Below, in pieces: positions 60,151 to 63,375 of a stretch of DNA of 64,000 nucleotides. Position 1 is the stretch's first letter, and each line of letters opens with the position of its first letter. Made by a program: the position numbers and the translations under genes. The DNA comes from Trueperella pyogenes (GTDB lineage Bacteria > Actinomycetota > Actinomycetes > Actinomycetales > Actinomycetaceae), in NCBI RefSeq assembly GCF_001070855.1, contig NZ_JVLH01000012.1, forward strand, positions 124,001 to 188,000. Reading direction: 5' to 3'. Below the pieces are notes generated by a model. The model was not told the origin of the DNA, made no database searches, and saw only the letters and a program-made list of their open reading frames with translations.

Positions 60151-63100
60151 TTATTTAAAAGTCAGGACGAAACGCCCAGCAGTGCCACGATGAACAATTA
60201 CCCCGGAATAAGAATTCCAAGAAAGCGCATATAAAGAACTGGGAAAACTCTGGCAATTCTGGGCGATGAATCGAAGCGCCTCTTTGGGAGGGTTCGTGAA
60301 AAGTAGCAGTTCGGTGCGGGTTTCGAGTGCTCTCATCCACTGCGAGTGTTCGAAATGGTGAATGATGCAACCTGCATTTATTGCTCTAAGAGCGTCAATT
60401 AATACCGAATTATCTTCTCCGATAAAAGTGCAATTCTTTTCAGAAAATAAGAACCGTTTTAATTGCGCGCCGTAACGAATGATATACGAGTGAATTCGCA
60501 TGTCAGGGTTGGTTTTAGTAAGTGAAGCAACTCTAGATTGGAGCATTGCTGGGGTGATCGGGAAGTGAGGTCTTTGTTGGACTAGAGCAGATGCATTGAG
60601 TGCGTCCAAAGGAAGAGAAGAGCATGAGTTCATCTGCCGGGACGCTGCATTGCCCAATTGCCCCTGACAGTCGTGAAGTATCTGATTCCACGATGGAATG
60701 CTCAGCGGTAAAGAGGGCTTCACTGAGTCGGTGCATAAGCAGATTAAAGACTTGTGAGCACTGCTCCAAAGTTGAGCGGGCGAATCTGTACACTCGGCTC
60801 CCCGGATTGTTGGGCAGCTTTCCGCAATTTGCGGATTGGGAATCTCGTACCAAATGTGCTCATAGGAACCAAAAAGCGTGCGTGAGGTGAATCGGCCTGA
60901 TACCTCACTGGCAATGAGAACACTATTGACGCCATCGCATGAGCGAGCGAACTGGCCCCACAGATCATGAGCACGAAGAACTCCCAAGCGCTCTTCCAAC
61001 ATATGCAAAGTCCCTTCGATATCCTCGAGCCAGACAACGCAAGGAGTGCGATGACAAAGATCTTCGCAAAGGACCCCAAAATCCACGATGTCACGTATCA
61101 CGTAGTCGGGTGAACTTGCGATCGAATTCGGGATGCCCGAATCAATCGAGACTCCGCAAAGAGGGAAGCCCAACGAATCGCTCAAAGTCGTGGCGCACGA
61201 ACGGACAAGTAAGGCGAGCTTGTTTGTCGAGCTCCCAGAACCGCTCATCATGATATTTCCGTGCTGCCATGTAAGACATCGGTGTGTACCATTTTCGATC
61301 CCGTCGATGAGTCCAATGGGTATGCCCCGTTCTGAAGAGTGCAGCTGATCGAGGTCACCGCGTGTGAGCTGAGAGGGTAAAGAAGGGCACCACAAAGGCG
61401 CGCCAATGGAATCTGACTGCTTCTTCGAAATCGAAGCAATGCTCTGCTCGATATTCCTGCAATACGCAAATTGGACAGGCTTTCCGGAACCGAGCAATGC
61501 TCTGCCAGGAATACGGGGAAGGTGCGCGGCCTCTGCGCTGCCGATGACGCTGTGTGAATCAGAATCAGAAATGCTACGCAGTGCAATCCGTAGTTCTGTG
61601 TTGGCACGCATGTGAGCGCTAATTGAGGCGCCGGGATGCTGTGTCGCATAGATCAAATGCAAACCAAGAGAACGTCCCTGAGCCGCAAGCCTTGAGAAAG
61701 TCTCGAGGGTTTCCGGATGCAGATCAGCAAGAACTTGGAATTCATCAATGACGATGAGGATCCGTGGAGGCGGGGGAGGAGCGCACTCTTGAAGAAAACG
61801 TTCATGCCACTGTGAGAGGTCCTTGACTGCGTATTGTGCAAATTGTGCTTCTCGCGTCGCAATGCACGACGCAAGACCTCTAAGAGCGCGCGAGGAATGA
61901 GCAAGGTTGAGGTCTGTTAAAACGGTTTCAGTGTGGGGGAGTGCGGTGAGGGGAGTGAGGGCAGATCCTCCTTTGTAATCCACCAAAACCAAGCGGAGGC
62001 GTGAAGGGGAGTAGCTTTCGCATAATCCAAGAAGCCACGTTCGAAGCGCTTCTGACTTTCCGCTACCTGTCGTGCCGGCAATAAGGGCATGAGGCCCGTG
62101 CTTCACGAGGTCAATGTGAACAACTCCTGAGTTGTCTTTCCCAATCGGTGTCCGTAACCCCTCATCGCTATCGATTACTTCAAATGGAAGTTCGTCGAAA
62201 TCGACGCATTCGGGAATAGAACCGAATAGTGTGTCTCTGCCCAGCATCTTCCACCACGCCAAAGACACAGGTGCTCGGGAAGCGGGTATCACTGTGTGAC
62301 ACCACGTTGGTAGTTCATTGAAATGATGTGCCCAGGCAAGGTGAATATTTTCATCCCCGTTCTCGTCCTCACCTGGAGCGTGAAGTCTGATGCTTGCGCG
62401 ACATGACCTGGAATTAGCGGCACCCGGGCCAAGAGATTTTTGCCTTCCGATATCGATAAGCTCATCAGTGCCTTCGGCTACCCGTGCTCCTCCCAACTGT
62501 GCCGCGAGCTGAGCCGCGCACCACAAAGCACTTAACTTGGCCTCGGGGCCAACAAAACCAAGATATGTTTCCCCGTCGGTGCCAGAAACCGTGAGAGCTT
62601 TCCCGCGCCCAATGTGGTTGGGATAGACCAGGAGGGACGAAGACTCTGAGATAGAAGGAACTGCAGTTTCAAGAAGAAGTGCAAGCCACGCCGCATCAAT
62701 GCGATGCCTGGGTTTTCCTCGTTTCATGACTACTATCCCGAGGATTGACATGCTGATGAGGGGAACGACAAATAGAAGAAGCGACATGCCGCCGTAGGAG
62801 CCCATGACCAGCATGCGAAGCACCATGAAAAGTAGAAGCGGAACAATGCCAATGAAGGGCATCGTAGGTAGGTGCCTTGAAGTGCGGGAGGCAGAAGGAA
62901 AAGAAAGATCACGCGGCCGTTGGCGCAACTGGTAATAGTCGCTAGCAGAGCTGCCACTCACTTTAAGTTGCATACCTTTCGCGGGGGTATATACACGCTT
63001 TGGACGAAGTCGTCGCCATGGGATGAAAGCCGCCGGGCGAATCCATATCTGTGCATCCTCGCTGTCGAGAAGGAAACTCATGTGCTCGCGGCCTCGGTTA

Positions 63101-63375
63101 TCGGTGAAGATCTGTATCTGTGCTGGAAATTCTTGAGGGCGTCCCAGAGGAGAAACAACCAGTCCAATGTTTGGCCCACTCACGCAGGCAAAATGCCACG
63201 AGGAGCGAAGGGCAGCTTGAAGAAGCGTTGGCGCCAAGGGGAAATCTCCCACCAGCGTGATCACCTCCCAAAAACATCCCTGCGTAGGCACGTGAACTGT
63301 GTAGTTGCGTGAGGCCGGTTTCTCTTCAACCTTCAGCCTTGAGCAGGCTCCGTAGTCGCGCCCGTGAAAAGGCAA
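60151..63375 (-). CDS. EccC/EssC-like FtsK-family ATPase, solitary
   Basis: About 1074 residues. A beta-rich N-terminal region (about 30-165) is followed by two membrane helices (about 186-235). Then comes an EccC-type linker and an intact ATPase domain: Walker [13 protein letters not shown] (Lys440), VDYKGGSAL, Walker [13 protein letters not shown] and [12 protein letters not shown] second ATPase-like part has a ruined P loop (SGSGSSTNK) and WLEDIEG, and a third C-terminal part has no P loop. This is the type VII secretion motor layout, yet no WXG100 or other ESX gene is adjacent. The start is a TTG without a ribosome site; GTG at 63291 is an alternative. Confidence 0.82.

Follow-up and report, generated by a model that had tools for sequence, protein, structure and literature searches.

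The Trueperella pyogenes genome holds, between whiB1 and ligA, a gene for a protein that, as judged from its sequence, is a type VII secretion system (T7SS)-type motor with an EssC/EccC-like architecture and one intact ATPase. Across related bacteria, this motor and a single WXG100 gene encoded elsewhere are kept or lost together, a pattern suggestive of a pared-down secretion system whose genes are scattered. The explanation that we favor, and regard as modestly probable, is a minimal T7SS whose two dispersed parts would be the motor and the lone WXG100 protein, the latter serving as both substrate and activator.

The gene lies on the minus strand of the stretch of DNA analyzed here (64,000 nucleotides; the window), where the open frame given in the ORF listing at positions 60151-63375 comprises 1,074 residues and is limited upstream by a TTG at 63375. 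Since the closest orthologue, which comes from Actinomyces sp. ph3 (Actinomycetaceae) and is 88% identical, is preceded by a stop codon and has its start about 37 residues into the frame, and since GGGAGG precedes a GTG at 63252 in the window, translation probably starts at this GTG rather than at the TTG, giving a product of about 1,033 residues (60151-63252). In the numbering of the 1,074-residue frame, an FHA domain delimited by profile and PDB matches (residues 45-160; 62896-63243) is followed by two transmembrane helices placed by hydropathy and by collinearity with an EssC-type paralogue (residues about 168-220; 62716-62874), a stalk or linker delimited by alignment with the same paralogue (residues 223-402; 62170-62709), ATPase 1 (residues 403-640; 61456-62169), a pseudo-ATPase 2 without the P-loop lysine, delimited by hhalign (residues 655-862; 60790-61413), and a C-terminal region at the ATPase 3 position, in which ATPase similarity is undetectable (residues 880-1074; 60154-60738), all on the minus strand. 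The EccC/EssC order put forward in the initial annotation is thus upheld, its N-terminal region being an FHA domain that precedes two hydrophobic segments, a stalk and an FtsK/SpoIIIE ATPase.

Profile comparison of the N-terminal region alone matched the FHA domain of an FHA-bearing, 1,485-residue EssC-type paralogue from the same genus (Prob 97), and a PDB profile search also retrieved the FHA proteins GarA/OdhI. The residues that bind phosphopeptides in FHA domains are well kept in many relatives and eroded in the window species' own clade. An N-terminal FHA domain followed by two transmembrane helices is a feature of EssC; like the EssC of the T7SSb and the 1,485-residue paralogue, which several genus members carry (L168 and others), the motor is collinear in FHA, transmembrane, stalk, ATPase 1 and ATPase 2 parts (hhalign with the paralogue, Prob 100). 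It differs from both in that P-loops 2 and 3 are gone, a single FHA domain is recognized, no gene cluster surrounds it, and its EssC score of 189 bits is far below the 778-bit cut-off. EssC (188.8 bits) and EccCa (177.7 bits) are its top NCBIfam families, both well under cut-off: the EssC equivalog (TIGR03928) requires 778.4 bits and is matched in ATPase 1 only, the EccCa equivalog domain (TIGR03924) requires 509 bits, and FtsK scores 48.8 bits against a cut-off of 1,566. The motor shares with the EccC of T7SSa/ESX membership of the FtsK-type export motor family, and its best PDB match, closest in ATPase 1, is Thermomonospora curvata EccC (T. curvata, 4nh0); unlike EccC, it falls under the EccCa and EccCb cut-offs and has an FHA domain. 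AlphaFold2 models built from two sequences had mean pLDDT values of 32 (C-terminal part) and 29 (full length) and were discarded.

Pfam recognizes a single FtsK/SpoIIIE domain (PF01580, 5e-28), corresponding to ATPase 1, which is the sole motor domain with catalytic motifs. Its P-loop, GTTGSGKS (residues 434-441; 62053-62076), is kept in every orthologue examined, and its Walker B motif, DEF (61738-61746), is invariant in the genus alignment. Mean pairwise identity within the genus is 55% in ATPase 1 and 22 to 34% in all other parts. A second GxxxxGK[ST] is absent from every genus orthologue, so that the three nucleotide-binding domains of EccC are reduced to one, as first noted from the window sequence. 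Likewise as first noted, GSGSSTNK (residues 712-719; 61219-61242) stands at the second P-loop position, as alignment with ATPase 2 of the 1,485-residue paralogue confirms. Domain 2 matches ATPase 2 with Prob 96 for sister-genus orthologues and Prob 82 for the paralogue (hhalign), and by these comparisons it is a recognizable pseudo-ATPase homologous to the ATPase 2 fold. The C-terminal 195 residues gave zero profile matches, including none to ATPase 3; the third P-loop is missing, and on this profile evidence ATPase 3 is eroded beyond detection.

The whiB1-type gene (59757-60005, minus strand; PF02467, 2e-26, and synteny) lies downstream of the motor and is co-directional with it, while ligA (63472-64000, plus strand; ATG inferred from the frame) is divergent and runs off the window. 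The same ligA/whiB1 locus holds orthologues across the genus, and sister genera have them there as well. Of the 35 genus genomes, 33 carry a complete or nearly complete copy; the match in G018 is an N-terminal fragment that adjoins ligA where the contig ends, and G029, a fragmented assembly that is 88% complete, gave no match. Wherever the neighborhood of the genus loci resolved cleanly, the motor is divergent from ligA and is flanked on its other side by whiB and a gene for a pdtaS-type kinase, with cls, gatCAB, thyA and dfrA close by. The whiB-pdtaS-motor synteny reaches a family of small genomes (f3, which we infer to be Bifidobacteriaceae) and one genome of another (f20), where ligA is not adjacent; the motor-whiB order is retained in other families. 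Among the neighbors (whiB1, ligA, cls, gatCAB, pdtaS, thyA and dfrA), the EsxA/EsaB/YukD/EssA/EssB/EsaA cluster that characterizes the T7SSb was not found, and in the 64-kb window no WXG100 gene passed the family cut-off, the nearest match being weak (E 0.016) and lying inside a YhgE/Pip frame. The motor is solitary between whiB1 and ligA, as the initial annotation had it, and is so throughout the genus.

Two neighboring YhgE/Pip-family matches, related to the EsaA-like family, lie at about 41749-44825 of the window (G000:C11:165749 and 168346). Positions 52388-57098 encode two similar tandem secreted proteins of 719 and 725 residues, the first of which matches alpha-1,3-glucanase catalytic domains (PF22815 and PF22816); this pair and the next gene occupy the place of pdtaS in many relatives. 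A 756-residue surface protein with a T-Q ester bond domain (PF18202) is encoded at 57362-59632. In family f3 (L131 and L136), the short motor has two genes directly upstream (419 and 493 residues), which were rejected as candidate T7SS partners, being LytR-CpsA-Psr proteins. In genera g27 and g28 (L205, L206, L210 and L211), the ligA-adjacent motor site is filled by a cassette of regulator- and transporter-sized genes (about 400 to 450, 234, 247 and 850 residues), with partial histidine-kinase and response-regulator matches.

The motor is co-distributed with WXG100 genes. Five genus members (G005, G008, G027, G032 and G033) are without an ESX EccC and have only the motor and FtsK, yet each has exactly one WXG100 gene. 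In most genus genomes examined, this lone gene is convergent with groEL, near mtrAB, an arrangement also seen in sister genera and family f3. The window genome's copy lies beside groEL on a different contig from the motor (G000:C2:77501-77791; L075:9502-9792) and encodes a 96-residue protein that passes the NCBI cut-off for "WXG100 family type VII secretion target." WxG and a C-terminal Y-x3-[DE]-x5-8-F tail occur in each of the 29 lone WXG100 proteins that were checked; Yxxx[D/E] is described as a motif that mycobacterial T7SS substrates require (PMC6954902). In the wide sense of the term, a T7SS would be recognized here, as a WXG100 protein with a C-terminal Yxxx[DE] accompanies the motor in motor-bearing genomes. 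When 34 genomes from several genera were searched for both components, 22 had an EccC-like motor and WXG100, 12 had neither, and none was discordant. In the motor-less genera, the ligA and mtrAB/groEL neighborhoods are intact and exactly the motor and WXG100 genes are missing; in G153, for instance, the motor is missing from pdtaS-whiB-ligA-cls-gatCAB, and WXG100 from mtrAB ... groEL. The motor-less genera form one clade in the marker tree, so these cases amount to one co-loss in the family and possibly one in G087, and their phylogenetic weight is modest; the possible second co-loss falls in a 0.8-Mb reduced genome. G261 (L141), which has neither the lone motor nor the groEL-linked WXG100, carries another EccC-like gene (1,426 residues) and, about 6 kb from it, a weak match to WXG100, a locus that is possibly T7SSd-like and acquired later.

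In the minimal system that we propose, the FHA domain and the two transmembrane helices would set the motor in the membrane as a ring, to which a WXG100 homodimer would dock by its C-terminal YxxxE...F tail, and ATP hydrolysis by ATPase 1 alone would power export. ATPase 2 would persist as a pseudo-domain. ATPase 3, which serves for docking in ESX-1, would have been lost or remade; if so, the substrate would dock elsewhere, on ATPase 1, on pseudo-ATPase 2 or on the remade C terminus. The architecture, the motif losses, the conserved locus, the co-distribution and the signal tail are computational results; the binding of WXG100, the membrane ring, the docking site, export and the sufficiency of WXG100 as sole partner are inferred. 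EccD was rejected as a partner, as no motor-only genome has an EccD above the cut-off, with sub-threshold weak matches in G071 and G040. The EsaA-like YhgE/Pip proteins were rejected as well: the EsaA-type partner envisaged in the initial annotation does not co-vary with the motor, since motor-less genomes have it and several motor-bearing ones lack it. Because the partner search was confined to EccD and YhgE/Pip, "two genes suffice" is a hypothesis only. Additional membrane partners are a feature of the other T7SS types described, which we count against a two-gene model. Counted against it too are the indirect nature of the motor-WXG100 link, which we draw between genes that are unlinked on the chromosome, and the small co-loss sample. 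The erosion of ATPase 3 also weighs against it, given that in the ESX-1 structure the WXG100 C-terminal tail, or signal, binds ATPase 3 (PMC6954902).

A different division of labor, in which the main job of the motor is to export other proteins and WXG100 is an activator or co-substrate, a core component rather than cargo, is unlikely, though it is the best of the alternatives. In its favor, ATPase 1 is under strong constraint, and EsxA of the T7SSb is reported to be necessary for toxin export (PMC13355648); against this, no candidate cargo gene is linked to the motor or the WXG100 locus, both of which consist of housekeeping genes.

The state of ATPases 2 and 3 across lineages bears on whether the motor is instead a relic, left by an EssC-type T7SS in decay and retaining little function. 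The orthologues of sister genus g24, which occupy the same place beside ligA, retain both later ATPase domains, with Arg replacing Lys in the P-loops (e.g., GSPGSGRS and GPPGSGRT), and their three ATPases are collinear with the 1,485-residue paralogue. In family f3, the motor has 575 to 720 residues and P-loops 1 and 2, the third domain being missing. These graded motif states indicate that P-loops 2 and 3 were lost stepwise while ATPase 1 stayed fixed. The initial annotation had considered that the later parts might be unrelated to ATPase folds: this does not hold for domain 2, and domain 3, undetected in the window protein, is still present in sister-genus orthologues. Graded loss is what decay would leave behind, as is the erosion of FHA binding residues in the window's clade. 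However, the long frame is intact in well-assembled genus genomes, the ATPase 1 motifs are invariant even though overall identity among orthologues is mostly 26 to 30%, and three families keep the motor in its place, which makes a relic improbable.

Slightly less probable still is the idea that the motor serves the regular ESX system of the genome as an auxiliary or regulatory subunit. The initial annotation had hinted that the genome has no T7SS, and this was overturned: elsewhere in it are one full EccC, two EccD matches and, from the genome-wide WXG100 search it had suggested, three WXG100 genes, all outside the window. The complete EccC (L006:13818-17795, contig 1) has 1,325 residues and three P-loops and passes the EccCa and EccCb cut-offs, with an EccCa score of 844; contig 1 also carries EccD, and the end of contig 8 holds a second EccD and WXG100 genes. 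Most of the genus likewise has a complete EccC with WXG100 pairs, which speaks for such a role. Nevertheless, the motor occurs without any other EccC, FtsK aside, in five genus members and in the sister-genus genomes G059, G071, G086 and G325; kept in genomes without ESX, it cannot depend on ESX, and this explanation is largely refuted. Nor does the motor look like a recent duplicate of the local EccC. In the ATPase 1 tree, the lone motors of Actinomycetaceae group together (support 96/89; 92/83 when the FtsK outgroup is left out), apart from the local EccC; forced grouping of the lone motor with that EccC gave a p-AU of 0.08, not formally rejected, and a single clade for all whiB1-linked motors was neither shown nor rejected (p-AU 0.28). 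The tree and the conserved synteny disfavor recent duplication and point to an ancient lineage separate from the local EccC, so that of the initial concern that the motor might be a diverged copy of a second, complete EccC, only the existence of that EccC is borne out.

Downstream of the complete EccC, three tandem cassettes (L006:3781-13654; contig 1 of G000) each encode a protein of 112 to 115 residues and then one of 934 to 984 residues; these have no confident Pfam match and resemble T7SS substrates, each accompanied by a small partner protein. Several members of the same genus (L168, L169 and L171) have, alongside the lone motor, a third EccC/EssC type of 1,413 to 1,575 residues, which contains FHA and matches EssC strongly but in part only.

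Of the two processes first suggested for the motor, a reduced or distinct secretion and a DNA-related one, the former remains the best reading; a DNA translocase for chromosome or plasmid transfer, suggested by the FtsK/SpoIIIE-type ATPase and the adjoining ligA, is scarcely credible, since the genomes, the window's included, have a separate FtsK, the EssC and EccCa scores far exceed that for FtsK, the FHA, stalk and pseudo-ATPase 2 are collinear with EssC, the motor co-occurs with WXG100, and ligA is not its neighbor in family f3.

T7SSc to T7SSj have been recognized from gene neighborhoods around essC and phylogeny (Garrett et al. 2024, PMC11217815). Like the motor pair, these systems have an FHA-bearing TsxC and a WXG100 TsxA, and the T7SSd is without the ubiquitin-like TsxB. 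The actinobacterial T7SSd comprises TsdA, C, D, H and I encoded together (PMC11217815), whereas the motor and WXG100 stand at separate housekeeping loci; at these two loci, no Ser/Thr kinase, large Ig-domain, TsdH or TsdI gene was recognized beside either one. The scattered pair is not among T7SSc to T7SSj. WXG-FtsK clusters, proposed as ESX ancestors (PMC4791881), also combine an FtsK-type ATPase with a WXG protein, but in our case the genes do not form a cluster and the motor has two degenerate ATPase domains. In Actinotignum schaalii, an Actinomyces relative, a second, solitary FtsK/SpoIIIE eccC "elsewhere in the genome" was noted without analysis (PMC5720513); the likeness is one of description only and does not imply orthology. 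None of the papers found in our literature search describes the motor-WXG100 pair; Sutcliffe 2011, on WXG100 system distribution, fell outside it and may bear on the matter.

A fuller version of the minimal system is offered tentatively, as a possibility that may well claim too much: a cluster-free, two-gene T7SS, vertically inherited at the whiB1-linked motor and groEL-linked WXG100 loci in Actinomycetaceae and at least one other family, in which a single live ATPase would export the WXG100 homodimer without EccB/D/E, mycosin or EssA/EssB/EsaA and would recognize its cargo by means other than the canonical pocket of ATPase 3.

T7SS types are now defined by essC/eccC gene clusters, and a scattered pair kept over family-level distance would escape such surveys. 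The motor and WXG100 could rank among the smallest natural T7SSs proposed. By losing ATPases 2 and 3 in graded steps, these motors provide a natural experiment on the role of those domains, and the species with only the motor and one WXG100 offer a simple background for asking whether ATPase 1 is enough and whether ATPase 3 is needed to read the signal.
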